Position numbers and translations under genes: made by a program. From Sorangium aterium (GTDB taxonomy: Bacteria; Myxococcota_A; Polyangia; Polyangiales; Polyangiaceae): a DNA stretch of 64,000 bases. Each line of letters opens with the position of its first letter. Position 1 is the first letter of the stretch. Below the pieces are notes generated by a model. It searched no databases, was not told where the DNA came from, and saw only the letters and a program-made list of their open reading frames with translations. The DNA lies in NCBI RefSeq assembly GCF_028368935.1, contig NZ_JAQNDK010000007.1:186001-250000 (forward strand), read 5' to 3'. This document shows, piece after piece, positions 5,331 to 28,100 of this stretch.

Positions 5331-6083
5331 TCATGGCGACGTCGACCAGAGGAACTGCGGCCGGTGCACCGCGATCATGTCGTAGCGCAGCCGCTGGTGC
5401 GCGGGCGACCCCGGCGCGATGGCGACCCTGGTCGCTCCTCCCTCGGCCAGGGCGTCGAAATCGACGCTCGCGAGCCACTCGTCCACGACGTCGAAGCGGA
5501 CCGCGAGGCGGACCGGCGCGGCGCCGACGCTCGCGGCGACCGCGAGGCTCGGCACCGCGAGCAGCCCCTGGCGCTGCGGCACGGCGTCGACGTCGGCCTC
5601 GAAGTCGAGCGCCTCCGCGCCCCGCGTCGCGCGCCCGCGCAGGTGGACGGAGCTGACGCCGGGAGCCTCCGGCGCCGGCGTGGGCGACGACTCGGTCGAG
5701 AACCAGTGGATGCCGTAGTTGAACGACACGCTCCGGATCTCGCCCTCGAAGCCGTGGACCAGGCCGAGCGGCTGCGGCGCGGGGTCGAGCAGGTTCACGC
5801 GCGTGATCGTGGTCAGCTCGGCGATCGCGGTCTCGCACAGCGTCGACGCGCCGGAGTCCGCTGCGCAGAAGTAGGCCGGGCCGAAGGCGACCGTCGCCTC
5901 GTCGAGCGCGATCGTCCACGCGCCCGCGGCGATCTCCCCGGGGACGTCGGCCTCGGCGTGCGCCGCGTACGTGACCTCGGGCTGGCCGGTGCCGGCGCAG
6001 GCGGATGCGGACAACGCGGGCGACCCCAGGAGGACAGCGGCGAGGAGGCGGCGCGCGCCAGGGGAGAGGTTCGGGGCGTTCAT
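5331..6083 (-). CDS. Exported protein of the TonB-receptor operon, function unknown
   Basis: A protein of 250 residues whose ATG overlaps the receptor stop (ATGA). The leader (RRLLAAVLLGSPALSASAC) resembles a lipoprotein signal with candidate Cys29. The rest is predicted beta-rich and carries two cysteines close together (AYFCAADSGASTLCETAI). I see no match to a family I can name. Its position between receptor and Cys/His-rich protein suggests a periplasmic or outer-membrane partner that delivers or senses the receptor's ligand. Confidence 0.65.
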   Translation of the reverse strand: MNAPNLSPGARRLLAAVLLGSPALSASACAGTGQPEVTYAAHAEADVPGEIAAGAWTIALDEATVAFGPAYFCAADSGASTLCETAIAELTTITRVNLLDPAPQPLGLVHGFEGEIRSVSFNYGIHWFSTESSPTPAPEAPGVSSVHLRGRATRGAEALDFEADVDAVPQRQGLLAVPSLAVAASVGAAPVRLAVRFDVVDEWLASVDFDALAEGGATRVAIAPGSPAHQRLRYDMIAVHRPQFLWSTSP

Positions 6084-8707
6084 AGCGAGAGCGTCACGTT
6101 CGCGAGGATCGAGCGCGGCGACCCGGCGCTGATGTGCCGGGCCGGCAGCTCCGAGGGGATCGACGGCTGCGACGCGCCCCCGGCGCCGGGCCAGGTCGAC
6201 TTGAACGAGTACTCGGCGTCGGCGTACTCGGCGTCGAGCAGGTTCTGCGCCTCGACCCCGACCTCGATCCAGGGGCCGCCCTGCGCGGCGTCGCGGCCGA
6301 CGCGCAGGCTCCGCCGGAGAGAGAGGGACGCGTCCACCACGAAGACCGGCGCGGCGGTCTGCGCGTACGGCAGCGGCCGCGGGGAGAGGAACGTCGCGCC
6401 GTAGCCGAGCCGACCCTCGACGGGCGCGCCGGCGATCGTGAAGACGGGCCGCTTCAGCGCGAGGTCGGCCCGCACCACGACGGGCGGCACGAACGGGAGC
6501 TGCTGTCCCTTCACGTACGGCGGCGACGGGTTCTCTGGCGTCGGCGGGGGCGGCTCGTCCAGCGTGGCGTGGACGAGCGTCGCGCTCACGCCCGCCGTGA
6601 GCGTGGGGCTCGGCGCGGCCTGCAGGTAGGCGACGAGCCCGCGGCGGGTCGTCCGGCCGATGCGCACGAGCGCGCCCTCCGCCGCGTCGAACGCGAGGTC
6701 GTAGGAGAGGCGCGTCTCGTACGCGGCCGCGGTCACGCTGAGGCCGCCGCCGGGGCGCAGCGTGGCGCCGGCCTCGTAGCTCCTCACGGTCGCGAACGGC
6801 GCGTTGTCCCCGTCCTCGAGCAGCCGCGCCTGCGGCGAGCGGTAGCCGTGCCCGTACGAGGCGGAGACGCGCAGGGCGGGCAGCGGATCGAGCTCCAGCG
6901 TCACCCGCGGGCCGGCGGCCAGGCCCGCCGCCGTGCGACGGAACCCCTCGATGTGCGTTTCCTTCTGCGCCGCCGGGATGAAGTTGCCGATGCGGTCGTC
7001 CACGTCGAAGACGAGCAGGTCGGCGCGCAGGCCGCCGCGGAGGCGCGCGTAATGCGACAGCTCGAGCAGCGCGTCGGCGTGGGCGCCGATCCCGGTCAGC
7101 TGGATCGACGCGTCGACGCGCTGATCCCACGTCTCGTTCTGCGGCGGCTGGAGCAGGTTCTGCGCCTGGTCGATGCCGTCGGTCTGCACCTCGGCGCCGA
7201 CGGCGACCTGGCCGGAGAGCCAGGACGCGAGCGGGATCCGCGGCGTGCGGTAAGCGATGCCGCCGCCGAGCGCCGCGTCCTGGTTCGCCTGCTCGATGAG
7301 GTCGCCCCTGCCGACCCACTCGGGCCGCCGGCGCGAGCGCTGCGTGTAGCCGGTGAAGTTCATCCGGCTCCGGTACCCGGTCGTCGCCGCCCAGAGCCAG
7401 GCGCTCTTCTGAGAGCCGTCGTCGTCGGACCGCTCGACGCTCAGCGCGAGCTGAAGCCGCGTCGACGCGGCCGACTGCGCGCGGGCCGCGAGATCCGGGT
7501 AGGCGTCGTGGAAGCCGACGCGCCCCGCCTCGATGTCGTCGCGCCGGAGCACGCCCGCGAGGTTCGCGCGGCCGCCGTGGGCCGCGACGTGCAGCAGCGC
7601 CGAGTACTCGTCCGGCAGCGGCACGCGGTACTGGCCGACGGCGCCCCCGGAGATCGCCCCGCGCGTCCCGTCGCCGAAGCCGTCGGTCGTGCGCACCACG
7701 GCGGCCCCGAACGTGTCCTCCGACTGGCCCTCCGGCGCCCAGAGCGCGAGCAGCCGCCGCGTGCCGAACGAGCCGAGCGTGCCCTTGAGCAGCAGCCCGC
7801 GCTCCTCGACGCCGAGGTCGAAGTACGCGCTGCCCGCGACCGCGAAGTCGCCTTGCTGCGGGTCGTAGACGCCCTCGACGACGCGGAGCGACCGCACCAC
7901 CTCCGGGATGATCACGCTGAGATCCGCGTAGCCCTGGCCATGGAGGTGCGAGCGCTGGTTCAGCGGGATCTGCCCGACGCGGAGCTCGACGTCCTGGCCG
8001 TGCTCCGCGTCGAACCCGCGGAGGAAGATGCGCTGCGCGACCGCCTCGCCCTCGGGGTGCGCGACGTGGACGCCGGGCGCCGTGCGGAGCAGATCCGCGG
8101 CGGTCGCGTGCGGCGCGGCGGAGAGCGCCGCGCGGCCGATCCGGAAGTCGCTCGCGGCGCGGCGCGGCGGGTTCGGGCGGCCCTGCACGTGGATCTCGAT
8201 CGGCTTGCCGGGCTCGGCGACGGCGTGCGGGCCCGCGACGCCCCCGGCGAACTCCACCGGCTTCGGCGCCGCCGGCCGGGGCGGCGGGGGCGCCGCCGGG
8301 CGATCCGCCGCCTTCGGCGCCTCGGTCTGCGTCGGCGCGGGTTGTTGCTCGTGGGGGCCCGGCGCGAAGTGGAACGGCACCCGGATCCGCGCCCGCAGCG
8401 GCGTGCCGCCGCGCATGGCCGGCGAGAAATGCCACCTCCGCACGGCCTTCATGGCCGCGTCATCGAACGCCGCGCCCCCGGACTCGGCCACGACCGCGTC
8501 GCTGACCGTGCCGTCCTTCTCGACCGTGACGAACAGCGTGACCGTCGTGTCGACGCCCTCCGCGAGCCGCTCGGGCGGGTACTCCGGGTCCACGTGCTCG
8601 AGGATCTGCGGCGCCACGGGCGCCTCGGCGCGCGGCTCAGGCTGCCCGAGCGCCGCAGGCGCGGCGAGGGCAATCGCGGAGAGGCAACAGAGGGACGACC
8701 AGCGCAT
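6080..8707 (-). CDS. TonB-dependent outer-membrane receptor with N-terminal TonB-type domain
   Basis: A protein of 875 residues. I prefer ATG 8707 to the in-frame TTG at 8713. After a signal peptide (about 1-22) comes a domain of the TonB C-terminal type (about 28-110: EHVDPEYPPERL, VEKDGTVSDAVV, VRRWHFSPAMRGGTPLRARI). A Pro/Ala linker precedes a plug domain (about 185-310: RIGRAALSAAPHATAADLLR) and a 22-strand-type barrel ending in LANVTLSL. Family knowledge: such receptors import scarce ligands (metal chelates, cofactors, glycans) using ExbB/ExbD/TonB energy. Fusing the TonB-like domain to the receptor is unusual but recurs in myxobacteria. The ligand cannot be read from the sequence; the Cys/His-rich partner hints at a metal. 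Confidence 0.85.
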   Translation of the reverse strand: MRWSSLCCLSAIALAAPAALGQPEPRAEAPVAPQILEHVDPEYPPERLAEGVDTTVTLFVTVEKDGTVSDAVVAESGGAAFDDAAMKAVRRWHFSPAMRGGTPLRARIRVPFHFAPGPHEQQPAPTQTEAPKAADRPAAPPPPRPAAPKPVEFAGGVAGPHAVAEPGKPIEIHVQGRPNPPRRAASDFRIGRAALSAAPHATAADLLRTAPGVHVAHPEGEAVAQRIFLRGFDAEHGQDVELRVGQIPLNQRSHLHGQGYADLSVIIPEVVRSLRVVEGVYDPQQGDFAVAGSAYFDLGVEERGLLLKGTLGSFGTRRLLALWAPEGQSEDTFGAAVVRTTDGFGDGTRGAISGGAVGQYRVPLPDEYSALLHVAAHGGRANLAGVLRRDDIEAGRVGFHDAYPDLAARAQSAASTRLQLALSVERSDDDGSQKSAWLWAATTGYRSRMNFTGYTQRSRRRPEWVGRGDLIEQANQDAALGGGIAYRTPRIPLASWLSGQVAVGAEVQTDGIDQAQNLLQPPQNETWDQRVDASIQLTGIGAHADALLELSHYARLRGGLRADLLVFDVDDRIGNFIPAAQKETHIEGFRRTAAGLAAGPRVTLELDPLPALRVSASYGHGYRSPQARLLEDGDNAPFATVRSYEAGATLRPGGGLSVTAAAYETRLSYDLAFDAAEGALVRIGRTTRRGLVAYLQAAPSPTLTAGVSATLVHATLDEPPPPTPENPSPPYVKGQQLPFVPPVVVRADLALKRPVFTIAGAPVEGRLGYGATFLSPRPLPYAQTAAPVFVVDASLSLRRSLRVGRDAAQGGPWIEVGVEAQNLLDAEYADAEYSFKSTWPGAGGASQPSIPSELPARHISAGSPRSILANVTLSL

Positions 8708-8893
8708 GGGCAACCGAGCTCAACGCGACTACCACGCCGTACAGCGGCCGCAAGCGCCGCTTTGCCGGGCTCCGCGCGCGCAGACGACGGTGACGGAAGC
8801 GCGCGACGTCCACGCGCGCGGCTTTTCGGCGACACGCCGCGCCGGTGCAGCGGCGGTCTCGCCGCGGGGCGCGGGGCCGTGTATCGTCTCGTC

Positions 8894-9310
8894 ATGCCGA
8901 ATGAGACGCTCGTCCAGGCGGTCAAGACCATCGTCGCCCTCGCGCGCGGTGGCGACCTCGACGCGGCCTACCGGGGGTACCGCGATCTCTTCCAGAAGCC
9001 GGAGTTCCTCAAGCAGCGCCCCGAGGATCAGCGCCAGGTGCTGCGGCTCATGATCCTCGCCAAGGGCGTCCCGTCGACGCCGACCGAGGCGATGATCGAC
9101 GCCCACCGCGCCGCGGTCCCCGCGCTGACCGAGCTCGTGTCGATCCACGGCGATCCCGGCGATCACGAGCTCCTCGGGCTCTGCCACGTCGTGCTCGGCA
9201 ACGTCGAGAGCGCCGACAAGATCTTCCGCGCCGGCCTCAAGATCGAGCGCGAGCGCAACCCCCAGAGCGATCTGTGCGGCACGCTGATGAAGCGGATCTC
9301 GCTGCTCTAG
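8894..9310 (+). CDS. Small helical (TPR-like) protein, function unknown
   Basis: A protein of 138 residues with no signal peptide, so probably cytoplasmic. The sequence is almost wholly helical with one TPR-like pair (ARGGDLDAAYRGYRDLF; LGNVESADKIFRAGLKIERE). It is divergent from the TonB receptor, with about 190 bases between them that must hold both promoters. No catalytic motif was seen; a scaffold role is likely. Confidence 0.68.
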   Translation: MPNETLVQAVKTIVALARGGDLDAAYRGYRDLFQKPEFLKQRPEDQRQVLRLMILAKGVPSTPTEAMIDAHRAAVPALTELVSIHGDPGDHELLGLCHVVLGNVESADKIFRAGLKIERERNPQSDLCGTLMKRISLL

Positions 9311-9403
9311 TTCGCGCTCGTCAGGGACGGGACTAGTTCTCAGCCGCACCCGTCCTGTTAGGATGGCCCCCGGGCGCCATGACAGCGCGCCGGCAGGGAG
9401 TCC

Positions 9404-10213
9404 ATGCACGTCATCGCGGTCGCGAGCCAGAAGGGCGGCGTCGGAAAGACCACGATTTCCCTCAACCTCGGGCTTGCCCTCGGGCGCGCAGGCAACCGCG
9501 CGTTGATCCTGGAGCTCGACGCGCAGGGGAGCCTCGGGCTGTCGCTCGGCCTCGCCGACCGCGCGCGGCCGGGCGTCGCGGAGCTGCTCACGGGCGCCGA
9601 GCGGCTCGAGTCCGTGCTGCTCCGGACGCGCGAGCCGCAGCTCCAGGTGCTCACCGTCGGCCGGGTCGATCCCACGACCGTCGCGGGCTTCGAGGACGCG
9701 CTCGCCCGCGGGCCGGTGCTCCCGAGCGTTCTCGCGCGGCTCTCGCCCGACTTCGACATCGTGGTCGTCGATTGCCCCGCGGGGCTCGGCAAGGTCACGA
9801 CGCGGGCGCTCGAGGTGGCGACGCACGCGCTCCTGCCGCTCCAGGCCGAGCCGCTCGCGCTCCGCTCGATCGGCCAGCTGCTCGCGGTGATCGATCGCGT
9901 CCGCGCCGAGAAGAACCCGCACCTGTCGCTGCTCGGCATGGTGCTGTCGATGTTCGACCGGCAGGCGTCCGCGTCGCTCGACGTGGCCGAGACGCTCTGG
10001 ACGAAGTTCCCCGACGGGATCATCCTCGATACGGTCATCCCGCGCGACGAGGCGTTCCTCGAGGCGTCTCTCCGCGGGGCGCCGCTCCTGCTCATGCAGA
10101 AGCGCCCTCCGCCGCTCGCGCGTGTCTTCGATCAGCTCGCGAACGACGTGCTGGTTCGCCTGGACCCCACCTCGCCGGACGACGACGATGGCCCGATCTC
10201 GCTCCTCCTTTGA
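9404..10213 (+). CDS. ParA/MinD-family ATPase
   Basis: A protein of 269 residues. It has the deviant Walker A motif of ParA-type ATPases (QKGGVGKTT at 9-17, with signature Lys10 and Lys15), a Walker A' region (LILELDAQGS) and Walker B (DIVVVDCPAG, Asp123). Family knowledge: these proteins dimerise on ATP, bind DNA or membrane, and position chromosomes, plasmids, chemoreceptors or other cargo. No parB gene or parS-like site lies next to it. It heads a four-gene operon whose second gene overlaps its end by 26 bases, so an orphan ParA that places a protein complex is more likely than a chromosome-segregation ParA. Confidence 0.87.
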   Translation: MHVIAVASQKGGVGKTTISLNLGLALGRAGNRALILELDAQGSLGLSLGLADRARPGVAELLTGAERLESVLLRTREPQLQVLTVGRVDPTTVAGFEDALARGPVLPSVLARLSPDFDIVVVDCPAGLGKVTTRALEVATHALLPLQAEPLALRSIGQLLAVIDRVRAEKNPHLSLLGMVLSMFDRQASASLDVAETLWTKFPDGIILDTVIPRDEAFLEASLRGAPLLLMQKRPPPLARVFDQLANDVLVRLDPTSPDDDDGPISLLL

Positions 10214-11033
10214 TGTCGACGGCGCCGTCGTCACCGCGGCGGCGCTGGTCAAGCGGTCGAAGTCGCGGAGGCCGCGGGCCGCGTCGGTCGCGCCCGCAGT
10301 CGAGCCGCTCGTGTCGTTCGAGTCGCGGCCGCCGCCCTCGCGGGTGGAGCCCGAGCCGATGTCCTCGTCGCCGCTCTCGCCGTCGTTCGAGGAGCTCGCG
10401 CCCTCGAGCGACCTCCTGCCCATGTCGAGCCCCCTGTCGAGCCCCGGCGTGGGCGGCGAGCTCGGGCTCCGGGGCGCGCTGCCCTCGTCCGCCGACGACG
10501 TCGACTCGCGCCGCGGCGCGCCGCTCGACCTGCGGCCTCTGGGCTCGCCGCCCTCGTTCGCGGCGGCGCGCGAGCCCCTCGAGGAGCGGCTCGACGGCGC
10601 CATCGAGGCGCTCTCGGCGGGCCGCGCGCCGCGCTTCCCGGACCTCGCCGCGGCAGGCGGGCCGGTCGCGCGCTGCGAGCGGGTGATCGAGTGGATCGCC
10701 GAGGCGACGGGCGCCACGGACGTGTTCCTCGCGGACGCAGCCGGGCTCCCGTTCGCCGGCGCGATCCGCGACACGGAGGCGAGGCTCGCCGCCTCGGGCC
10801 TCATCGCGTCGGCGATCGGCTCGCTCGTCGCGGCGCTGCCTGGCGCCCCGTCGCAGCGCTTCGAGCTCTGCGTCGGCGACGGGCCGTTCTTCCAGCTCAT
10901 CGGCTTCCAGGTGCGCTCCGCCGCGTACATCGTCGGCCTGATGCGTCCGGGCCCGCTCACGCCGCGCGAGGCGCACGCCGTCCGGATCGCGTGCCGGCAC
11001 GCGCTCGACGCCGCGGTCGGGGTCGTCGGGTGA
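10188..11033 (+). CDS. Roadblock/LC7-like protein with long disordered N-terminus
   Basis: A protein of 281 residues with its ATG inside the ParA gene. Residues 1-145 are rich in Ser, Pro and charged residues and probably disordered. Residues 160-280 look like a roadblock/LC7 fold: RVIEWIAEATGATDVFLADA, GLPFAGAI, LIASAIGSLVAAL and a final strand-helix. Family knowledge: bacterial roadblock proteins such as MglB regulate small GTPases that set cell polarity. No GTPase gene is present here, so partnership with the neighbouring ParA is inferred from the overlap alone. Confidence 0.62.
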   Translation: MARSRSSFDVDGAVVTAAALVKRSKSRRPRAASVAPAVEPLVSFESRPPPSRVEPEPMSSSPLSPSFEELAPSSDLLPMSSPLSSPGVGGELGLRGALPSSADDVDSRRGAPLDLRPLGSPPSFAAAREPLEERLDGAIEALSAGRAPRFPDLAAAGGPVARCERVIEWIAEATGATDVFLADAAGLPFAGAIRDTEARLAASGLIASAIGSLVAALPGAPSQRFELCVGDGPFFQLIGFQVRSAAYIVGLMRPGPLTPREAHAVRIACRHALDAAVGVVG

Positions 11034-11947
11034 GCGCGGAGCACGGCGAGCCCTCGTTCGGTCGTGGCGTCGCGGCCGTCGCGGGCGCGCTGGACGACGA
11101 CGACCCGCTCGCGCCGATCGCGCTCGACGGCCTCGGCTACGGCGTCGGCGGCCTCGACGCCATCGTCGTGTTCCACCTCGGCGACGCGCGCGTCCACGCC
11201 GTGTTCGTCCGCGAGGGCGCGGCCCTCTCTCCGAGCGACGTGGCCGCGGGGCTGCGCGACGCGTACCTCGGGAGCCAGCTCGCCGCGCAGCGGCTCGTCC
11301 CGGAGCGGGAGGGCTCGATCCGGCCCGCCCGGAGCCGCGGCGCGCGATCGTCGAGCAAGCCGCCGCGCTCGCAGGGCCGCGCGGAGGAGCTCCCGGACCC
11401 GGTGGTCACGCTGGAGCTGAGCGGCCGGACCGTCCTCCTGCGCCGCGTCCGCGCGTGCGTCGTCGCGAGCCTGTTCGACGCCACGATGCCGCTCGGCATG
11501 GCGCGGCTCGTGGCGCAGCGGCTCGCCGCGACGCTCGCGCCCGAGCTGCCGCTCGAGGAGCCGCCCGAGGAGATGCTGAGCGACCCGTCGGGGCTCTTCG
11601 AGGAGCCGCTCAGCGCGGACACGGTCGACGATCTCGTGCGGGGCGTCGCGCGGTCGGCGCCGCCGAGGGGCTCGTCCAGCATCCCGGCGCGCCGGACCGG
11701 CGGGACGCCGCCGCCCGTCGATCCGCCGTCGGCCGAGGTCGCGCGGATCCAGCGGCTGCTCGCGCTGCTCGAGGCGCGCGCGCCGGAGCCTCACGTGGCG
11801 CGGCTCCGGCTCGCCCTGCGCGCCGGGCTGACGCCGCTCGCGCTCGAGCACCCCGACGGGCTCGGCGCGGAGGCGATGGTGCTCGTCGAGACGGCGGTCG
11901 CGGACATCCTCGGCCTGGAGCGCGCCGCGCTCCGGAGGCTCCTGTGA
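11030..11947 (+). CDS. Protein of unknown function in the ParA/V4R operon
   Basis: A protein of 305 residues. The GTG start overlaps the previous stop (GTGA) and its own stop overlaps the next start (GTGA), so it is firmly part of the operon. It has no signal peptide. Two alpha/beta segments (about 25-80 and 125-175: VVTLELSGRTVLLRRVRACV, then FDATMPLGMARLVAQRLA) recall the roadblock layout but are too weak to assign. A Pro/Ser-rich break precedes a helical C-terminus (about 235-305). No catalytic residues were recognised. Confidence 0.62.
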   Translation: MSAEHGEPSFGRGVAAVAGALDDDDPLAPIALDGLGYGVGGLDAIVVFHLGDARVHAVFVREGAALSPSDVAAGLRDAYLGSQLAAQRLVPEREGSIRPARSRGARSSSKPPRSQGRAEELPDPVVTLELSGRTVLLRRVRACVVASLFDATMPLGMARLVAQRLAATLAPELPLEEPPEEMLSDPSGLFEEPLSADTVDDLVRGVARSAPPRGSSSIPARRTGGTPPPVDPPSAEVARIQRLLALLEARAPEPHVARLRLALRAGLTPLALEHPDGLGAEAMVLVETAVADILGLERAALRRLL

Positions 11948-13251
11948 CGGCGCTCCGGCACGGCCTGCGGGGCCGCATCGAGGGCCCGCTCGGCGATCTG
12001 GTCGGCCCGATCCTCCCGCACGGCCTGCTCCACGTGGCCGATCAGCTGGTGGTCGCGCACTCGCACCACTTCGCGCTCTTCCTGGAGCAGACGATCTTCG
12101 ACGCGCTCGGCGGGGAGAGCCGCGGCGTGCGCCGGCAGGCGGCGTTCGAGGCGGCGCACGCGCTGCTCGAGCCGCTGTACGAGGACCGCCACGGGGCATC
12201 GCCGCGGGAGAAGCTCGAGCTCGCGGGCGAGCTGTTCGCCGCGATGGGGCAGGGGCGGCTACGGTTCGAGGTGAGCGCGGAGGGCGGCGTGGTGCACGCG
12301 GACTCGCTCTTCCACGGGACGAGCTTCCTCGCGAAGTACGGCGGTCGCGTCCAGAACCGGCTGGCGGTGGACGCGTTCGCCTCGGGCTACTGCGCGGCCG
12401 CGGCGAGCCTCGCGTTCCCGTCCGACTGGGGGCGGCTCGACGCCGACGAGGTGACGTGCGTCGCGCGGGGCGACGCGGCCTGCACCTTCCTGCTGACGCG
12501 GCGGTCGGAGCGGCCGCGCTTCGGCGAGGCGCTGACGCGCAAGCAGATCGAGTCGGCGCGCGTGCGCTGGGAGCCCGACGGCGGGCCGCTCTCGCGGGCG
12601 CAGCGCGTCGAGGGCGCGATGCTCGAGGAGCTCGGGGCGCTGCGGTCCGACGAGCGCGGTCTCATCTCGGCGTACGGGGTGAACCTGGCGCTCGTGCCGG
12701 TGGGCTACATCGATCAGAAGACGTTCGACACGGTGCACCTCATCGAGCGGCGGTCTCCCGAGCTCGTCCCGGTGTTCGAGGCGCTCGTGCGGGAGGCGGC
12801 GCAGACGGGCGCGTTCCACCTGCTCGGGGGGATGCTCTCGTCCTCGTCGTTCGAGGCGGCGTGCGGTCCGGTGGGCAGGGATCAGCACGAGCGCCTCGAG
12901 CAGCTGCTCGGGCTCGCCCGCGCGCTCGGCTGGGGGGCGCTCTCCGCGCCGGAGTTCCAGCCGGGCCGGGCGCTCGTGCTGCGGGCGCCGATCACGCACG
13001 AGAGCGCGTATTACGCCATGAAGCACGGGTCCACGGCGCGGGGGCGGCTCCTGTTTCAACAGGGAACGGCGCTCGCGATCATGCAGCTCCTGCACCGCGT
13101 CGATTTCGGGACGGCGCGGCCGATCGACGCCGAGACGTATGGCGGGCTGTTCAAGATGGGGACGCGGTTCCGCGCGCAAGAGACGAAGTCGCCGCTCAGG
13201 GGGGATGGCGCGTGCGAGGTGCGGGTGGAGGCGGTCGAGGACAGGTGGTGA
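11944..13251 (+). CDS. Protein with two V4R (4-vinyl-reductase-like) domains
   Basis: A protein of 435 residues, GTG start overlapping the previous stop. The first V4R domain (about 95-185) ends in the family's cysteine signature (VTCVARGDAACTFLL, Cys172 and Cys180). A second, diverged copy occupies about 290-430 (LGLARALGWGALSAPEFQPG, then RGDGACEVRVEAV). Family knowledge: V4R domains are small-molecule-binding sensors, structurally like HNOB and TRAPP/BET3 proteins, and share an evolutionary link with roadblock-type trafficking folds. Inference: the ligand-sensing component of the ParA operon. Confidence 0.68.
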   Translation: MTALRHGLRGRIEGPLGDLVGPILPHGLLHVADQLVVAHSHHFALFLEQTIFDALGGESRGVRRQAAFEAAHALLEPLYEDRHGASPREKLELAGELFAAMGQGRLRFEVSAEGGVVHADSLFHGTSFLAKYGGRVQNRLAVDAFASGYCAAAASLAFPSDWGRLDADEVTCVARGDAACTFLLTRRSERPRFGEALTRKQIESARVRWEPDGGPLSRAQRVEGAMLEELGALRSDERGLISAYGVNLALVPVGYIDQKTFDTVHLIERRSPELVPVFEALVREAAQTGAFHLLGGMLSSSSFEAACGPVGRDQHERLEQLLGLARALGWGALSAPEFQPGRALVLRAPITHESAYYAMKHGSTARGRLLFQQGTALAIMQLLHRVDFGTARPIDAETYGGLFKMGTRFRAQETKSPLRGDGACEVRVEAVEDRW

Positions 13252-13390
13252 TGACGTTCGCCGAGTACGGCGCGCGCAGCGAGTCCTCCGTTGTCCTCTG
13301 GTCCAGCCCTCGAGGAGCACCTCTGGCGGAGCACGGTAAGAGTTAGAGCGCGCTCGAAGTCGAGGGGGCGCGGTCGGTGAGGCCGCGCGC

Positions 13391-14338
13391 TCAGAGCGCC
13401 GCGCGGCGCAGCTCATCGAGGAGGATCGCGTCGGCCAGCAGATCCCTGGCGAACTCTTCGTGCTCGCCGCGCGCGATGGCCTCGAAGACGCTGCGGAAGA
13501 ACTCCGCGAAGCTGTCCGCCGTGGAGACATCGACCGTCCGCCGATGGTTGCGCTCGCTCACGCCGAGCTGGATGGGTTGATCGGCGGGGGGCGAGAACGC
13601 ACGGTCGATGGTCACGACCACGTCTGGGCCGAGGACCTCCAGGCGGTTCTGGTATCCGGTGGTCATCCCGTAATGGCCGACCATGGAGCGGCCGCCCGGA
13701 AAGGTCATGAGCACGCTGAAAGACGACTCGACCTCGCCGGCGCGCTCGACGACGCGGCAAGCGATCGACTCCGGCGCCGCGGAGGCGAAGAAGAGCCGCC
13801 CGAGGGTGACCGCGTACGGCCCGAGATCGAGCAGCGATCCGCCGCCGAGCGCGGCGCGGTAACGGTAGTTGTCCGCCGGCAGAGGAGGAAAGCTGAACGT
13901 CGCCGTGAGCCGCGTGGGCGAGCGGCCGGTGTCGCCGAAGATCCGGCGGACCTCGCGGTAGAGCGGGTGATACCCGTAGACCGTGGCCTCCGCGAGGCAC
14001 CGCCCCTGCTTGCGGGCGAGCCGCACGAGGCGGCGAGAGGCCTCGGCCGACAGGCAAGCCGGCTTGTCGACGACGACGTGAAAGCCCCTCTGGAGGGCGC
14101 GCTCGGCGAGCTCCTCGTGGGTGGAGTTGATCGTCGACACGTACACGAGCGCGGCGTCGCTGCGCGCAAGCGCCGCGCGGTAGTCGTCGTAGCAGCGGCC
14201 CGCCGCGCCGGGCGGCAAGGCGACGTCGGCGCTCCGGGAGACCGACGCGACATCGATGTCGCGCACGCCGAGGCGCGCGAGAGCCGGCAGCACGCGTCTC
14301 CGCGCAAGGCTGGAGTTGCCGAGGAGCAGGACCTTCAT
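13391..14338 (-). CDS. Gfo/Idh/MocA-family sugar oxidoreductase, probable NDP-hexose 3-ketoreductase
   Basis: A protein of 315 residues. The N-terminal Rossmann fold starts KVLLLGNSSLARRRVLPAL. HVVVDKPACLS holds the Lys-Pro motif near the nicotinamide, and GGGSLLDLGPYAV is the usual C-terminal catalytic region of the family. It is the last gene of a leftward dTDP-sugar operon. Relatives in deoxysugar pathways reduce the 3-keto group of NDP-3-keto-6-deoxyhexoses using NAD(P)H. That fits the ketoisomerase upstream, which makes just such a 3-keto sugar. The stereochemistry of the product cannot be predicted. Confidence 0.8.
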   Translation of the reverse strand: MKVLLLGNSSLARRRVLPALARLGVRDIDVASVSRSADVALPPGAAGRCYDDYRAALARSDAALVYVSTINSTHEELAERALQRGFHVVVDKPACLSAEASRRLVRLARKQGRCLAEATVYGYHPLYREVRRIFGDTGRSPTRLTATFSFPPLPADNYRYRAALGGGSLLDLGPYAVTLGRLFFASAAPESIACRVVERAGEVESSFSVLMTFPGGRSMVGHYGMTTGYQNRLEVLGPDVVVTIDRAFSPPADQPIQLGVSERNHRRTVDVSTADSFAEFFRSVFEAIARGEHEEFARDLLADAILLDELRRAAL

Positions 14339-14426
14339 TCGACGCTCTCCTCGCCGGTGCGCCGCCCGAGCCGGCCGCGGCGCAGGGCGCCGCGAGCGCC
14401 GCCCTGCGGCCGCGTCGCGCGCGCCG

Positions 14427-14834
14427 TCACGCTCCCCTCACCTCCTGCACGTACTCCTCCCAGGACCGGATCGAGCGGGACTTGTCGTAATGGGTATTCG
14501 CCAGAACGAGGACGACGGTGCCGGGCGCGAAGTCGAGCAACCGGATGAAGAGCATGGGCACGATGTGGACCCCTCGCGTGGGGGAGTCGAGCGCGAACCG
14601 CCGGCTCTCTACCCCGTCCGAGAGCTCGAGGACGAAGCGCCCCGCGAGCGGGACGATGACCTGCTGCGTGTCGCGGTGGGCGTGCCCTCCCCGGTCCTGG
14701 CGGACGTCGTACAGGTAATAGGCCCGCTTGATCTCGAACGGGATGTCCTTCATCCCTTCGATGAACGTCAGCGCTCCGCGCTCATCCACCACGGAGCGGA
14801 AATCGATCCAGCGTACGATATCGAGCCGACTCAT
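14427..14834 (-). CDS. dTDP-4-keto-6-deoxyglucose 3,4-ketoisomerase (FdtA/QdtA/WxcM-like)
   Basis: A protein of 135 residues; I place the start at ATG 14834, after GGAAGG. It is a one-domain cupin with the catalytic histidine pair of the family in GGHAHRDTQQVI (His51, His53) and the conserved ending LANTHYDKSRSIRSWEEY. Family knowledge: it moves the keto group of dTDP-4-keto-6-deoxyglucose from C4 to C3, the first step towards dTDP-Fuc3NAc, Qui3NAc and other 3-substituted sugars. FdtA and QdtA differ in C4 configuration, which motifs alone do not settle. No 3-aminotransferase is nearby; the adjacent Gfo/Idh enzyme suggests reduction instead. Confidence 0.85.
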   Translation of the reverse strand: MSRLDIVRWIDFRSVVDERGALTFIEGMKDIPFEIKRAYYLYDVRQDRGGHAHRDTQQVIVPLAGRFVLELSDGVESRRFALDSPTRGVHIVPMLFIRLLDFAPGTVVLVLANTHYDKSRSIRSWEEYVQEVRGA

Positions 14835-14853
14835 CTCCAACCTTCCCGCTGTT

Positions 14854-15759
14854 TCACGCAGGCTCAACCGGTGCGGTGCCCCAGCGGCGCACGGGGTGTT
14901 CTCTCAAGAGATTGCGCAGATAATCCGAATACTCGCCTGGCAGCTCGTCCGCGAGCGCGGCCAGCGCCTCCCGGCCGATGAAGCCCATGCGGTAGGCGAC
15001 CTCCTCGGGGCAGGCGATCATCAGCCCCTGGCGCAGCTCGACCGTCTGCACGAAATTGGACGCCTGGAGCAGCGACTCGTGCGTGCCCGCGTCGAGCCAG
15101 GCGGTGCCCCGCCCGAGCATCTCGACCCTGAGCTCCCGGCGCGCGAGGTACACGCAGTTGAGATCAGTGATCTCGTACTCGCCGCGGGCCGAAGGCTTGA
15201 GCGACGCCGCGATGTCGCACACCTTGCCGTCGTAAAAGTACATCCCCGGCACGGCGAAGTGGCTGCGCGGCTCGCGCGGCTTCTCCTCCAGGCTGATCAC
15301 GCGCCCTGATGCGTCGAGCTCGACGATCCCGTGCCGGTGCGGATCGCTCACGGGGTACGCGAAGGCGACCGCGCCCACGTCGAGCCGCGCCGCGCGGCGG
15401 AGCGTCTCCGGGAACCCAGTGCCATAGAAGATATTGTCCCCGAGCACGAGCGCGACGGGCTGGCCGCCCACGAAGCCGCGGCCGATGCGGAATGCGTCGG
15501 CGAGCCCGCGCGGCTGGTCCTGCTCGGCATAGGCGAGCGTGAGGCCCCACTGCCGGCCATCGCCGAGGAGCCGCTGGTAGAGCGGCAGGTCCTCCGGCGT
15601 GCTGATCACGAGGATCTCCCGGATGCCCGCGAGCATCAGTATCGAGAGGGGGTAATAGACCATCGGCTTGTTGTAGACCGGCAGGAGCTGCTTGCTCACG
15701 GCCCGGGTCACCGGGTGGAGGCGCGTGCCGCGGCCCCCGGCGAGAATGATTCCCTTCAC
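14854..15759 (-). CDS. rmlA: Glucose-1-phosphate thymidylyltransferase
   Basis: A protein of 301 residues, close to the usual 290-300. The GTG start overlaps the rmlB stop by 4 bases. The signature [16 protein letters not shown] binds the nucleotide, [15 protein letters not shown] is the second conserved block, and GDNIFYG and EKP follow. It makes dTDP-glucose from dTTP and glucose-1-phosphate, the entry to the sugar pathway. Leloir-type short (RmlA) form. Coupled to rmlB, so both are made from one transcript. Confidence 0.95.
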
Positions 15760-16832
15760 TGGTCCACTCCTCGCTTCGTGTAGTTCCGCTCGATCCAGCC
15801 GTGGTAATCGTCGCGCCGCCCGATCGCGGACAGCCACTCCGGGTTGGCGAGGTACCACTCAATGGTCTCGCGCAGCCCCTCTTCCAGGGAGAAGCGCGGC
15901 TGCCAGCCGAGCTCGCGCTCGATCTTCCGGAAGTCGACCGCGTACCGCCGATCGTGCCCGGGCCGGTCCGGGACGAACCGGAGGAGCCTGCTGTACGGCC
16001 GATAAGGCGATTCGGGGAAGCGGGTGTCGAGGTACGCGCAGATCTGATGGACGATCTCGAGGTTGGTCGGCTGATTGCCGCCGCCGATGTTGTAGCTCTG
16101 TCCGGCGCGGCCGCGCTCGAGGACGCGCAGGATGGCCTCGCAGCCGTCGATGACGTAGAGCCAGTCGCGCACCTGGGCGCCGTCGCCGTAGACGGGCAGC
16201 GGCTTGCCCGTCAGCGCGTTCAGGATCATCAGCGGAATGAGCTTCTCGGGGAACTGCCGCGGGCCGTAGTTGTTGGAGCAGTTCGTGATGGTCGCCGGCA
16301 GGCCGTAGGTGTGGACGTAGGCGTTGACCAGGTGATCGCTGGCGGCCTTCGACGCGGCGTAGGGCGAGTTCGGCGAGTAGGGTGTACCCTCGTGGAACGC
16401 GGCGTCGGTCGGCCCGAGGGAGCCGAACACCTCGTCGGTGGAGATGTGGTGAAAGCGCTTGCCTTCCGCGGCGCCGCGGCCGAGCCACGCGGTGCGCGCG
16501 GCCTCCAGGAGGCGCAACGTGCCGACGACGTTCGTCTCGATGAACGCCTCCGGGCCGGCGATCGATCGGTCCACGTGGGACTCCGCAGCAAAATGAACGA
16601 TGGTGTCGATCCGCCGCTCGGACAGGAGGCGCTCGACGAGCTCCCTGTCGCGTATATCGCCGTGCACGAAGGCGTGCCGCTGCTCCGGCAGCCCGGTCAG
16701 GCTCTCGCGGCGCCCCGCATAGGTCAAGGCGTCGAGGGTGACCACCTGCACCCCGGGCCTCTCCGCCAGCACATACCGGATGAAGTTCGAGCCGATGAAG
16801 CCCGCGCCCCCCGTGACAAGGATGTTCTTCAT
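15756..16832 (-). CDS. rmlB: dTDP-glucose 4,6-dehydratase
   Basis: A protein of 358 residues, an extended-SDR enzyme. NAD binds at [15 protein letters not shown] (6-20). The catalytic Thr-Asp-Glu lies in HISTDEVFG (132-134) and the Tyr/Lys pair in [13 protein letters not shown] (Tyr158, Lys162). It converts dTDP-glucose to dTDP-4-keto-6-deoxyglucose. First gene of the leftward operon, with about 480 bases to the divergent synthase gene. No rmlC or rmlD is present, so the pathway leads away from rhamnose. Confidence 0.95.
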
Positions 16833-17316
16833 GTCTGCACCTGGCGCGCGAGCGCCTTCCACGACACCTGAAAGCCAGCGAGGGCCCGCATCGCCCGGCC
16901 GCAGACCAGCCAATTCGGGACTGCGATCGGGCGTACGGATTCTGGTTCGGATGCAAAGTCTGTCAACCCTCGATCACCTCGACCCGGCGTTTCACGGTCG
17001 CGGCGATCTCGCCGTGTCCCGGATCCCGCAGTCGGACAGCGAAACACCCTCGTGCGCGGGCATGAAGCTTTGGCTTATCCATTGTGAAGTATTGTAAAGC
17101 TTCCGGGAGGTTTCGTCGCGCCATTGGCCATGAAACAGAAGATATCTCGCATACTTACATGCTCACACAGCAAAAATTGCGCGAGGGGCCCCGCGGCGAA
17201 TCCCTGCGTCCAGATCACTTCTCGCCTTGCGATGGAGATCGTTTTCGGGGAGACTCCGCGCGCGCTGGGCCTGGGCGGTCATTCCGCGGCCGGACGCATC
17301 GAGGCAAGGGAGCCAG
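16833..17316. promoter_or_regulatory. Divergent control region between the sugar operon and the lipid-synthase genes
   Basis: About 480 bases with no convincing gene and clearly lower GC than its flanks. It must contain promoters for the leftward sugar operon and the rightward AT-DH operon, so both halves of the cluster could share regulation. It includes a perfect 8-base inverted repeat (listed separately) and AT-rich stretches near 17084-17100 and 17140-17180. No clear -35/-10 pair was found. Confidence 0.55.
17064..17103. promoter_or_regulatory. Inverted repeat GAAGCTTT / AAAGCTTC, candidate operator
   Basis: GAAGCTTT (17064-17071) is repeated in inverse orientation as AAAGCTTC (17096-17103). 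The centres are 32 bases apart, about three helical turns, so a dimeric regulator could bind both halves from one face of the DNA. The spacer is AT-rich for this genome. No regulator gene lies in the cluster. Confidence 0.4.
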
Positions 17317-22115: not shown

Positions 22116-25100
22116 CTACCCGGCGTCGGAGGCGCTGCTCGTCGCGTGACCTGCCCGCGGCTCGGCCGGCAGCGCGGCGTCCTGGCCCGAGGGCGAGGTG
22201 CCGGCCGCGTCGCCGCCGTGACGCCACGGCCCCTCGCCGGCGACGACCACGACGTCGCCCTTGGGACCATACGAGAGCTCCTCCGAGAAGAAGCCGCACC
22301 CGGACTCCACGTCGACGGGCACGATCCCCTGCGCCGAAAGCCGCCGGAGGACGCCCTCGCCGGCCATCCCGACCTCGCGCCAAGGCCCCCATCCGATCGA
22401 GACCACCCGCGTCGCGGGCCAGCGCGCGTCGAGCTGAGCCGCGAGGCGGCTCATGACCTCGTTGGCGGCTGCGTAATCGGATTGACCGCGGTTCCCGAAC
22501 CGCCCGGAGATCGAGCTGAACAGGACGCACCATTTGAGCTCGTCCGGGCGCAGCGCCTGCCCGAGGAGGAAGGTGCTGTCGGCCTTGGTGTCGAAGACCC
22601 GGTCGAACGAGTCGGGGCGCTTGTCGGCGAGGAGCTGGTCCTCGATGACACCGGCGCCGTGGACGACCGCATCGATCCGGCCGAAACGACGATACACGCC
22701 GGTGAGCAGGTCCTGGAAGCGATCCTCGTCGCGCACGTCGATCGCGTGGTACTCCACGGCGGCGCCGCGCCGGCGCAGGGAATCGAGCGTGGCGCGGCGC
22801 TCCCTCGCCTGCCGCTTGCTCCTGATCTCGGCCTCGATCGCGGCGGGCAGCAGGTCGCGCCCCGCGCTCCGCATGTCGAGGATGGCGCGCCGGCGCAGCG
22901 CCTCGACATCATCGCTGCCTTCGTCCTGGAGATCCCCCTCGGGGATCTCGGACCGCCCGACAAGGATCAGCCGGACGTCCGGACGGGCAAGCCGGGCCGC
23001 GATCGCCGCGGTAATGCCGCGCGCTCCGCCGGTCACCAGGACGACCCAGCCGGGGCCCGGCTCCCAGTCGCGGCGCTCCCCGGCGAGCTCGAGCGGCGCG
23101 GGCGCGGTGGACACGACCGTCCGCTGGCCGTTCAGATAGCTCACCTCGAGATCGTCCGGCGCGCGCGACAGCTCGTCGAGGATGCGGCTCGCCATGGCGT
23201 CGCGCGGCAGCGCGTCGTCGAGCCCGACCACCTTGGCGACGGTGCGGGGGTGCTCGTGCGCCACGCACCGCAGGACGCCGTGGCAACCGGCGCTGGACGC
23301 AGATCCGTCGAGGCTGCCCTGCTCGATGCTGCCCCCGATCAGCGTTGCAGCCACGATCCGCAGGGGCTCGCCCCGCGCCTCGGCCAGCTCGCCGGCGCAG
23401 GCTTGCGCGGTGTAGAACAGGCTCTTCACCTGTACCCGGTTGCCGCGCCGGAACGCGGCGAGCCCGTCTACGGCGCCGCGGTGGAGGGACGCGACGTGTA
23501 CGATCCCGCGCACCGCGCCGTGCTCGTGGCGCGCGGCGGCGACATGGCGCGCGATGCGCTCGGACTCCTCGAGCGCATCGCGCGGGATCACGATCGGTCT
23601 GGCCCCGCGCTGCGCCAGCAGGGCGCACAGGCGCGCGCCGACGCCCAGGTCGTCCTCGGTCACCAGGAAGAGCCCCTCGAGCTGCGCCGGCGGATCGTCG
23701 GGCAGCGCCTTGCGCTCGGCGCGCATGACAAAACGAGGGCACGCCCCCGCCCGCGCGCCGCCGGGTGAGGCGGAGCCCGGGAGGGGCACACCGCCGTCGG
23801 CGCCCTCACCGGCCTGGCCCGGGCCGGGGCCGACGGCCTGCGCCGCCGAACCGAGGTCCGCGCCGGCAGCGCCTGCGCCGTTGCGCGGCCGCGCCGGTGC
23901 GCCCTCGCCCGTCTCGCCGGCGGGCAGCGCCGCAGCTTCGCTCGACACGACGTCGACGAGGCCGTTCATCGACCGGATCCGGGAGAGCCGGTCCATCGAC
24001 GACCGGAGCCGCGCGGCCACCGGCTGCGGGAGCTCGCGCAGCAGCGTCTCCAGGATCTCGATCCGCTTGATGGAGTCGATTCCGAGCTCCCCCTCCATGT
24101 CCTGGTCAAGGCCGAGCATGTCCTCCGGGTAGCCCGTCCGGCGGCTGACCAGGGTGGTGAGCGTCTTCCGCAGCGCCGCCGGCTTGAGCATCGCGGGCGC
24201 CAGGTCCCGCTCCTCCGCACCCGCTGCCGCGAGCGCCGCGGGCGACGGCGTGGGGCCACCGAGCGCTGCGGACGGCGGCGGAGGCGGCGACGCACCGGGC
24301 GCCGCGAGCGGGGCGGCCTGGCCGTCCAGCCGCGGGGCCGGAGGCGGAGCGAGCGCAGCCCCGTCCCCGTCGCCGCCGAGCCGGAGGAGGAACTCCGTGG
24401 TGATCCGCTCCTGCATCGTCAGGAACCGGCGCATCGTCTCCTGGTGCTCGCGGTAGGCGAGGAGCGGGATGTCCCCGGCGCCGGAGCCGGCCTCCGGAAG
24501 CAGGTCGTCGACCTCGACCGCGGGGGCGGTGTCGTGATCGAGGAACGGGCGCTCACCGAGAAGGCCCACGGGCTCGTCGGCGCGGCGGAGGCGCCCGCCG
24601 TCGATGCGCCACGCGGGGAGCGGAGCCTCAGGACGGTCGACCGCGAGCGCGCGGAGGTCGAGCCGACCGCAGGGCCGCCCGGCGAACAGCGCCGGCAGGT
24701 CGAGCCCGACGCCAGCGACGCCGAGCGACGCGATCGCCTGCAAGAGACCCTTCAGGCCGCCCCCGGCGCCGTCGAAGCTGACGGCCAAGTGCGGCTGCCC
24801 GTCGAGGATCCGCCGGACGAGGCCGGTCAGCGTGGCCTTCGGCCCGAGCTCGACGAAGGTCCGCGCGCCGTCCTCGTACATCCGCCGGACCTGCGCGACG
24901 AAGTCGACGGGGGCCTCGAGCTGCGCCGCGAGGAGCGCGCGGACGTCCGAGGGATCGCGCGGATACGGGCGGCCGGTCGCGTTGGCGTGGACCTCGATCT
25001 GCGGCGGCGCGATCGCCGTGCGCTCGAGGGCGGCGGTGAACGGGGCCCGGACGGCGCGCATGAGGGGCGAGTGGAACGCGCTCGACACCGGGAGCCACTG

Positions 25101-28100
25101 CGCGCGGATCCCCTTCGCGGTCAGCGCGTCGACGGCGGCGCGCATCGCGCCCAGCTCGCCCGAGACGACGCACTGCTCGGGCGCGTTGTGGTTGGCGATG
25201 CAGACCGCCGGGAACGCCTCGAGGAGGGGCTCGAGCTCGGCCCGGGAGAGCATCACCGCCGCCATCGTGCCCGGCTCCGAGGGCACCTCTTCCATGAGCC
25301 GCCCGCGCGTCTCGGAGAGCGCGAGCCAGTCCTCGCGCGACAGGGCGCCCGCCGCGCGCAGCGCGGTCAGCTCGCCATAGCTGTGGCCGGCGAGCACGTC
25401 GGGGCGAAGTCCGAGGCGAAGCGCGATATGCAGCATCCCGTCGCTGATCGCCCCGATGGCTGGCTGCGCGATCCGCGTGGCCGTGAGCTCGCGGCGCTGC
25501 CGCTCCTTTGCTTCCTCGGAGAACGCGGCCGGCGGCAGGATGAAGCGGCTCAGGCGAGCGGGCAGGAGGCCCTCGAGGCGAAGGTCGGCGAGCTCGATGG
25601 CGCCCCGCATCTCGGAGAAGTACAGGGCGACCTCGCGGCCCATCGAGGGGTACTGCGAGCCCTGCCCGGGGAAGAGGAACGCCGTCTTGCCAGCCTCCGG
25701 GCAGGGCGCGATCCGGAGGTGGATGTGGGCCGGCAACGAGCCTTCTGGCTCGCGCGCGGACTCGAGGTGGAGACGGAGACGCGAGAGCACCTGCTCGACC
25801 GCGCCGAGGAGGTGCTCGCGGTCGTCCGCGACGATGTAGACGGCCGCGCGCGCCGCGTTCGAGGCGCGTCGCGCGCGTCCATCGAGCGCCGCGAGCGCGC
25901 AGGTGAAGGCGACGTCGCGGAGGCTCACGGCGTCGCGCCCCGGCCGGAGCGCGCGCTGCAGCTGCTCCAGCTCGGCGACCAGCGACGGCGCGTCGGGGGC
26001 CTCGACGGCGACCAGCTCGTGAGGCCAATCGGCGGCCCCGAGGGCGGGCGCCGCGAAGTCGCCCTGGTACTCCTCCAGGACTGCGTGGAAGTTCGTCCCT
26101 CCGAAGCCGAACGCGCTCACGCCGACGCGTCGAGGCGCCGGCCCCGCGAGCCAGGGCTGCGGCTCGTCCAGCAGGTACATCGGGCAGTCCTCGGACGTGA
26201 GCGGATCCATCGGGGTGTCCACGCCGGCGTGGGGCGGCAGGACGCGGTGCCGGAGCGCGAGGAGCCCCTTGAGCACGCCGACCAGGCCCGCGGCGTTCCT
26301 TGTGTGGCCGAGGAGAGACTTCACGGACCCGATGGCGCAACGCTGGGGCGGCGCCCCGGCGGCGCGGAGGACGCCCGCGATCGTCTCGATCTCGGCGCGA
26401 TCGCCGACGGCCGTGCCGGTGCCGTGCGCCTCGTACATCCCGATCGTGGCCGGATCGATGCCCGCCCGCCCGTAGGCCCTCTCGAGCGCGATGCGCTGGC
26501 CGGCGGGCTTGGGCGCGGTGAGCCCCATCCCCTTGCCGTCGCTCGATCCGGCGACGGCCTGGATCACGGCGTCGATGCGGTCTCCGTCGCGCTCCGCGTC
26601 CGCGAGCCGCTTCAGGATCAGGACGCCGATGCCCTCGCTGATCACGATGCCGTCGGCCTTGGCGTCGAACACGCTCGCGCGGCCTCGCGGGGAGAAGGCC
26701 CTCGTCTTGCTGAAGGCCAGGTACCCATGCGGGGTCTGCTCGATCTCGACGGCGCCGACGACGGCGACGTTGGACCGACCGGAGACGAGCTCCGTGACCG
26801 CGAGATCGAGCGCCGCGAGGGAGGAGCCGCAGGCCGCGTCGACGGTCATGTTGGGGCCGCGCAGATCGAACGAGTTGGCGACCCGCCCGGCGATGACGTT
26901 CGCGAGGATGCCGGCGTAGCTCTCCTCCGACCACGTGGGGAGTCGCGCGAGGGCCGCCTGCGCTGGGCGGCCCACGCTCAGCGGGAGGAGGCCGCGCGCC
27001 ACGTACGCCTGCTCGAGATCGGCCGTGCCGTTGGCCGCGAAAATCACGGCGGTGTTCTCGCGATCGAAGCCCCCCGAGGTGTACCCCGCGTCCGCGAGCG
27101 CGCGTCGGGTCACCTCCAGGGCGAGGAGCTGGGCCACGCTGATCGATCTCAGCGAGACGGGCGGGATCCCGTAGCGCAGCGGGTCGAAGGGGAGCTCGTC
27201 GATGAAGCCGCCCCACTTCGAGTAGATCTTGTCCTCCGCCCGCGGGTCGGGGTCGTAGTAGAGGCGATAGTCCCAGCGTTGCGGGGGGATCTCGCGGATG
27301 GCGTCGACCTTGCCGAGGACGTTCCGCCAGAGCTCCTCCGGCCGTTGCGCCTTCGGCAGCAGGCACGCCGCGCCGATCACGGCGATGCGCGCGGGCTCCG
27401 CCGCGCGGCGCGGCACGTGCTCCACCGAGGCCTGGACGAGGCCGCCGAGCGCCCTCCGGCTGCCCGAGGACACCTCCTCGTGCAGCGACGAGATCTCGAC
27501 GATGTCCGAGCGCAGCGACGCGACGTCGCCCATCATGTAGAGGCCGCGGGCCGTCTGCCGCTCGTCGTCGGCCGCGTCGAGCTGGCCGCCCTCGCCGCGC
27601 TCGATCCCCTTGGACGCGATCCGCAGGCGGCCCAGCGTCAGTTGCTCGAGCGACGCGCTGATCGCGGCCGCGGCCTGCCCCTCCCGCCGCATCCGGTCGT
27701 GGGCGGCCTGGAACTCGCCCACGAAGGGTGTGGGCGCGCAGCGGATGACGTGCCCCGGCCCCGTCTCGATCGTGACGGTGCCATCGCAGGCGAGCGCCTC
27801 TCGCTGGAACCTCGGCGCGATCGCGCCGCTCGCGACCGCCTGCGCGGTGAAGAGATACGCGGTCCCCATCAGCACGCCGACGCGGAGCCCGGCGGCCGCG
27901 AGGGGAGCGGCCATCGCCGACACCATCGCGGCCGAGCGCGCGTCGTGGATGCCGCCCGCGAACAGCACGTGAACGGCCTCCGCGTCGGGCGTCTTCTCGT
28001 CGAGCAGCGCGTCGATCATCGCATCCCACAGGGCGAAGCTGCTCAGCGGGCCGACGTGACCGCCGCACTCGGCGCCCTCGAACACGAACCGCCGCGCGCC

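Follow-up and report, generated by a model that had tools for sequence, protein, structure and literature searches.

Known ParA/MinD systems are thought to place their cargo largely through their own cycle. The partners of ParA touch the ATPase via a charged, disordered N-terminus (PMC10241942), and for McdB the first 20 residues suffice (PMC12204374). Roadblock proteins are found with PATAN and TPR partners in the MglAB system, the published account of which mentions neither ParA nor V4R (PMC4316618), and TRAPP combines roadblock/longin-type with V4R/Bet3-type folds (PMC10933270). Here, we analyze an operon of Sorangium aterium, located at positions 9,404 to 13,251 of a 64,000-nucleotide stretch of contig NZ_JAQNDK010000007.1 (the whole of which we call the window), that encodes a ParA ATPase, two different putative roadblock proteins and a tandem V4R protein. 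A previous sequence-only reading of this DNA, which listed the third gene as unknown, knew of no described system with the four-gene set; we likewise found no description of the ParA/twin-roadblock/V4R combination in the open-access literature, which is weak evidence of absence.

The likeness to ParAB, McdAB and ParC/ParP lies in a ParA with intact Walker residues and an adjoining gene for a protein with an N-terminal peptide and a disordered linker; in contrast to these systems, the partner encoded here ends in a putative roadblock domain and is accompanied by a second roadblock and a tandem V4R, and the operon has no linked gene for ParB or for a microcompartment and no parS. As in MglA/MglB and the Streptomyces conservons (Cvn), roadblock proteins share an operon with a P-loop nucleoside triphosphatase (NTPase), and PATAN and TPR neighbors occur as they do near MglAB; however, the NTPase is ParA-class and not a Ras-like GTPase, the roadblocks are two different ones and V4R replaces the histidine kinase. 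With the eukaryotic and Asgard TRAPP/Ragulator machinery the operon, as known from its genes and fold classes, shares the joint presence of roadblock/longin-type and V4R/Bet3-type folds, whereas it has neither a GTPase gene nor a membrane-traffic context. Because the NTPase differs, the operon is not assignable to TRAPP or to MglAB, and nothing here shows for it the link to GTPase and vesicle-trafficking machinery that the sequence-only reading noted for V4R and roadblock folds: a ParA-class ATPase stands in the small GTPase's stead. One could still suppose that the roadblocks act on an MglA-type small GTPase encoded elsewhere and that ParA merely delivers the complex, as MglAB and Ragulator both contain roadblock folds that bind GTPases and the genome carries one clear Pfam roadblock protein and an Arf/Ras-type GTPase. 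Yet no gene for a Ras-like small GTPase, or for any GTPase, lies within the operon at any of the loci examined, and ParA is the NTPase with which the roadblock genes share both inheritance and translational coupling; we therefore regard this explanation as improbable.

The operon is a chain of four plus-strand genes, namely parA (gene 1, P0001; 9404..10213; 269 aa), the roadblock-1 gene (gene 2, P0002; 10188..11033; 281 aa), the roadblock-2 gene (gene 3, P0003; 11030..11947; 305 aa) and the tandem V4R gene (gene 4, P0004; 11944..13251; 435 aa). All four open reading frames were located with clean starts and stops, and they overlap just as the sequence-only reading had described, by 26 bases between the end of parA and the start of roadblock-1 (10188..10213) and by 4 bases at each of the next two junctions. 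In comparisons with four Sorangium strains, the ratio of nonsynonymous to synonymous substitution rates (dN/dS) is 0.12-0.32 for ParA, 0.38-0.59 for roadblock-1, 0.36-0.45 for roadblock-2 and 0.30-0.42 for V4R. These values show all four to be genuine coding genes, translated and under purifying selection; gene 4 shares 81-90% identity with strains of Sorangium cellulosum, the nearest named genomes. No sigma-70-type promoter or terminator pattern was found in 8700-13500, a result of little weight in a genome of >70% GC. In Sorangium cellulosum So0157-2, the roadblock-1 gene (L001:6243-7090) is frame-shifted in the public record, which is either a sequencing error or real.

These genes are inherited together and in one order. 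A profile search over fetched Myxococcota loci, a phylum-only scope that applies throughout, recovered the complete four-gene order from about 18 genera belonging to 5 families, and genes 3 and 4 (roadblock-2 and V4R) in about 24 genera and 7 families; the genus counts rest on draft genomes and were tallied by hand from the profile searches. The order is kept in all five of the named relatives found (four Sorangium and Minicystis), and in many further genomes of Sorangium's family. Another family contributes a single genome (L069), and the order also occurs in f5, f10 and f11 (L185, L186, L187, L191). Two families from outside the class, f25 and f49, have genes 3 and 4 as well, on truncated contigs (L188, L063). 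Since the gene-3 marker was detected in 17 of 377 sampled Myxococcota genomes, four of these via weak matches, the operon is widespread in the phylum yet patchy. Of the 27 loci at which the overlap between parA and gene 2 could be measured, at least 20 have 26 bases, six have 29 and one has 35 (lengths at L090, L186 and L092 were measured by hand). In a tree of 44 V4R proteins, the operon-linked members fall on one side of one branch, with 1 change against a shuffle mean of 11.4, which is consistent with a single origin of the operon-linked V4Rs; this origin stays unproven because the support for the branch is just 76. That four unrelated genes are neighbors by chance, a reading in favor of which there is nothing beyond the novelty of the set, is refuted by this conservation: order and overlap lengths are kept in about 18 genera and the V4Rs point to an origin on a single branch, so that we consider it wholly implausible. 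Two diverged copies of the operon occur in each of two genomes (L082 and L097 in G312; L096 and L098 in G314).

The assignment of gene 1 to ParA is borne out by matches to Pfam AAA_31 (E 1e-29) and CbiA (E 7e-21) and to the Thermus Soj structure 1wcv (E 5e-30). Its deviant Walker A motif, KGGVGKTT, holds the signature lysine K10 and the Walker lysine K15, and 25 operon ParAs all keep K10, K15, D39 and D123; judged by sequence, the operon ParA is a catalytically intact ATPase of the ParA/MinD type. Conserved among the operon ParAs are also a K/R-rich patch ahead of PPP near the C-terminus and an acidic-hydrophobic tail, DDxPIxLL, which is encoded in bases common to gene 2. Identity with BcsQ (cellulose) was rejected at 90 bits against a cut-off of 158. 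A role in defense is unsupported by PADLOC, the search of which for known anti-phage defense proteins returned in the operon only a weak generic ParA match (E 3e-4).

Gene 3, listed as unknown in the sequence-only reading, encodes a second protein with the roadblock fold, one that stands far from the Pfam family, an assignment based on its AlphaFold2 model, on structural matches and on profile matches to MglB. The model (predicted local distance difference test score, pLDDT, of 70-88 in the ordered parts and 60 on average) has the order bb-a-bbb-a over residues 42-172, followed by a helical C-terminal domain; the domain limits are 39-178 for the roadblock fold and 235-305 for the helical domain. 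Human Ragulator p14/MP1 chains, a Thorarchaeota roadblock, a Streptomyces roadblock and Myxococcus MglB make up the top Foldseek rows. Z scores against the Ragulator, MglB and Streptomyces roadblock structures are 9-11, and a second structural alignment gave Z 11.0 for Ragulator (root-mean-square deviation 2.7 over 110 residues) and Z 9.5-9.7 for MglB; the closest fold is thus that of Ragulator p14/MP1, at a sequence identity of about 15%. The gene-3 family aligns with the MglB profile at hhalign 62% over the last third, and a search of the PDB with the family profile placed MglB entries first, at E 0.09. None of the 25 family members matches the Pfam Robl_LC7 profile.

The helical C-terminal domain of roadblock-2 (11732..11944, plus strand) provides, through its homology, the strongest indication of joint action by the roadblock and V4R proteins. 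Eleven V4R loci that have no ParA/roadblock operon carry, immediately 5' of the V4R gene, a gene for a protein of 60-80 residues, and the alignment of these small proteins matches the gene-3 C-terminal domain at hhalign 87.6%, as compared with ≤0.4% for 20 column-shuffled controls and ≤1.4% for other operon domains. As the gene-3 tail is homologous to stand-alone proteins adjacent to V4R, this small helical domain is a regular V4R neighbor that became fused to a roadblock in the ParA operon.

The V4R assignment of gene 4 stands at the level of the family. The window protein itself scores 22.6 bits against Pfam V4R (PF02830), below the cut-off of 31, and 24 of 32 relatives match the profile at E ≤0.1 (best E 2e-13). 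Its two halves (N-half ~20-190, C-half ~225-430) align with one another at hhalign 97% and are encoded by two separate adjoining genes in L072, L073, L075-L077 and L079. The N-half carries the motif E169-x2-C172-x7-C180, which is present in 27/32 N-halves versus 4/32 C-halves and recurs with the same spacing in the MopR sequence. V4R/TRAPPC3 proteins adopt a two-layer fold that includes a hydrophobic cavity for ligands, and a metal site is present in PoxR and Thorarchaeota TRAPPC3 (PMC10933270). Given the motif and this literature on cavity and metal site, it is reasonable to predict both a ligand and a metal site in gene 4; by analogy with the V4R literature, E-x2-C-x7-C would bind zinc in P0004. 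The sensor regulators PoxR, MopR, DmpR and MobR share the V4R domain, in the case of MopR with this motif; unlike theirs, the operon V4R is tandem and has no AAA+ or DNA-binding output domain, and its output likely runs via protein contacts. Searches of the PDB with the V4R and roadblock-1 profiles gave weak rows only (MJ1460 E 0.056, MopR E 0.58; ribosomal S6 E 1.1). The Myxococcus TIGR02265/DUF2378 family was considered for gene 4 and rejected, with no such match in Pfam or NCBIfam.

In roadblock-1, a conserved N-terminal peptide (MARSRSSFDxDGAVxTAAxL) is joined by a long low-complexity linker, which varies in length, to a C-terminal domain at ~155-281; the build of peptide and disordered linker resembles that of the ParA partners described above. 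The earlier call of a roadblock domain in this protein finds support in its family: Robl_LC7 is matched by 5 of 21 relatives (best E 5e-5), the window protein itself having no Pfam match, and the gene 2 family aligns with the MglB profile at hhalign 83% over the first half, where unrelated pairs remain below 0.5%. From these profiles we infer a roadblock fold for gene 2.

Roadblock proteins usually dimerize, and the two roadblock domains of genes 2 and 3 therefore probably pair as a heterodimer. We hypothesize that the operon encodes a ligand-gated ParA partner complex, in which this heterodimer carries a ligand sensor and the ligand state sets ParA cycling and cargo placement, a proposal that in our estimation has an even chance of being correct. 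In its favor speak the conserved gene order and overlaps, the grouping of operon-linked V4Rs on one branch, the invariant Walker residues and K/R-rich patch of ParA, the roadblock-2 fold and roadblock-1 homology, the fusion link made by the roadblock-2 tail, the zinc-type motif, the charged roadblock-1 N-terminus of the window protein, the ParA-less locus L189 and the chemosensory and flagellar surroundings of V4R relatives. The conserved N-terminal peptide on its flexible linker would let roadblock-1 contact the ATP-bound ParA dimer and promote ParA release in the manner of ParB and McdB, and the helical tail of roadblock-2 would hold the tandem V4R, the pocket of which may take a small hydrophobic ligand, aided by the metal site of the N-half. 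Ligand binding would alter the contact between the complex and ParA, hence the ATPase cycle and, ultimately, the place or number of the bound cargo, which might, at a guess based on the location of V4R relatives, be motility or chemosensory machinery. The idea of ligand-responsive spatial positioning put forward by the sequence-only reading fits all of these findings. Neither outcome that it named as refuting arose, as the set recurs in other genomes and profiles at the family level back the roadblock and V4R calls, but that reading missed the second roadblock, the tail as a V4R partner and the TPR or PATAN-TPR gene that usually accompanies the operon. A further proposal, that a bacterial roadblock and V4R complex resembling the TRAPP/Ragulator core (two roadblocks, two V4R units and a TPR accessory) governs a ParA-class ATPase, not a small GTPase, with a chemical signal setting the cargo location, is tentative and on balance rather unlikely.

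Several observations weigh against a ligand-gated ParA partner complex. The AlphaFold2 model of roadblock-1, built from 5 sequences, is of low confidence (pLDDT 39), and the fold of gene 2 is therefore taken from sequence. The first 30 residues of roadblock-1 have a net charge of +6 in the window protein, but a basic peptide is not the rule throughout: other genera have a mean of +1.7, several of them 0 or -1. Since parA and gene 2 have many of the bases that encode the N-terminal motif in common, the motif may be conserved on account of the ParA tail. No cargo gene is constant beside the operon in the loci examined. In L189, parA is missing, a PATAN-TPR gene runs directly into gene 2, and gene 2 lacks its usual N-terminal motif; because parA and the motif are absent together, this single ParA-less locus fits the notion that the peptide serves ParA. 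The same locus retains the roadblocks and V4R, however, and a sensor complex can thus exist without ParA.

The genes around the operon bear on an alternative in which the location of ParA is beside the point, namely a soluble signaling switch where the roadblock pair sets ParA's nucleotide state in the way MglB sets that of MglA, with V4R as the input and TPR/PATAN as the output. The gene 5' of parA encodes a TPR or PATAN(DUF4388)-TPR protein in L069, L088, L090, L092, L096 and L097, and such a gene occupies this position in most loci beyond Sorangium and its nearest kin. Its overlap with the parA start is 4 bases where coordinates could be read (L069, L090, L092, L096, L097), which couples the two genes in several genera and would suit a switch. 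In Sorangium, its place is held by P0005 (8894..9310, plus strand), a small TPR-like protein of 137 aa (TPR_14 weak, E 0.07) whose gene ends 93 bases 5' of parA; this gene is conserved at that position in Sorangium and likewise in L080-L084, at L080 with a gap of ~12 bases to parA, and is a probable accessory gene of the operon. The roadblock superfamily is, furthermore, described as regulators of NTPases, PATAN proteins being encoded near MglB/MglA genes (PMC4316618), and V4R relatives have links to histidine kinases and to Che genes. Studied ParA-class ATPases, on the other hand, mostly position cargo (PMC10241942), and roadblock-1 has the disordered N-terminal extension typical of ParA partners. 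We consider a switch unlikely on the whole, if still a serious contender.

The surroundings of V4R relatives outside the operon hint at signaling and motility, without naming a cargo. Such relatives adjoin hybrid histidine kinases in L064-L067 and class-V aminotransferase (NifS-like) genes in L064-L068, L071, L075 and L079. The latter raise the possibility of a metabolic or maturation system, in which V4R would have an enzymatic or chaperone role, either like that of BchJ or connected with cysteine desulfurase, and ParA would be a maturation ATPase, and one V4R relative does match BchJ weakly; however, no such enzyme lies beside the ParA/roadblock operon, and the roadblock and TPR/PATAN partners are of scaffold or signaling types, leaving this explanation with little probability.

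If the ligand-gated partner complex is correct, a small molecule would directly tune positioning through a ParA partner made of roadblocks and a ligand sensor, and the roadblock and V4R folds, paired in eukaryotic and Asgard GTPase machinery, would serve another class of NTPase in bacteria. This would bear on how roadblock/V4R scaffolds were recruited, in an operon that is compact and widespread in Myxococcota.

Among the individual V4R loci, L070 (2215-10252) has a tandem V4R gene and the gene of the small helical partner closing a CheA-CheW-MCP-CheB-CheR operon, which suggests that this V4R is a soluble chemosensory input. At L068 (7451-10236; 1135-3447, 10754-18935), a flagellar cluster (FlgI confirmed by Pfam) harbors a tandem V4R gene together with the gene of its small helical partner, a class-V aminotransferase gene and one for a ~100-aa protein; the locus also encodes, 5' of a FIST sensor gene, another small helical protein that looks similar. 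Genes for V4R and the class-V (cysteine desulfurase-like) aminotransferase span L064:8256-13781, L071:9661-12496, L075:7397-9937 and L079:7325-9875, and in L071 the aminotransferase is fused to a domain resembling the ~100-aa neighbor of V4R. This ~100-aa neighbor, family c5, is encoded 3' of V4R in most loci beyond Sorangium and its nearest kin; it lies directly 3' of V4R both with and without the ParA operon (L063, L064-L067, L073, L076, L077, L088, L090, L092-L097, L185-L187, L189-L191), and a Pfam scan of one member gave no match.

Elsewhere in the window, a TonB-dependent-receptor-like protein with a TonB-like N-terminus and its small neighbors (5331-8713) are encoded divergently to the operon and are conserved beside it in all Sorangium strains fetched, and not in other genera. 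On the other side, the minus strand at 13391-16913 carries nucleotide-sugar genes that were identified by eye (a dTDP-rhamnose type dehydratase, a thymidylyltransferase, a cupin and a Gfo/Idh-like oxidoreductase); the genes 3' of the operon differ in other Sorangium loci. Further along the minus strand, 22116-29477 is a single open reading frame of 2453 codons.

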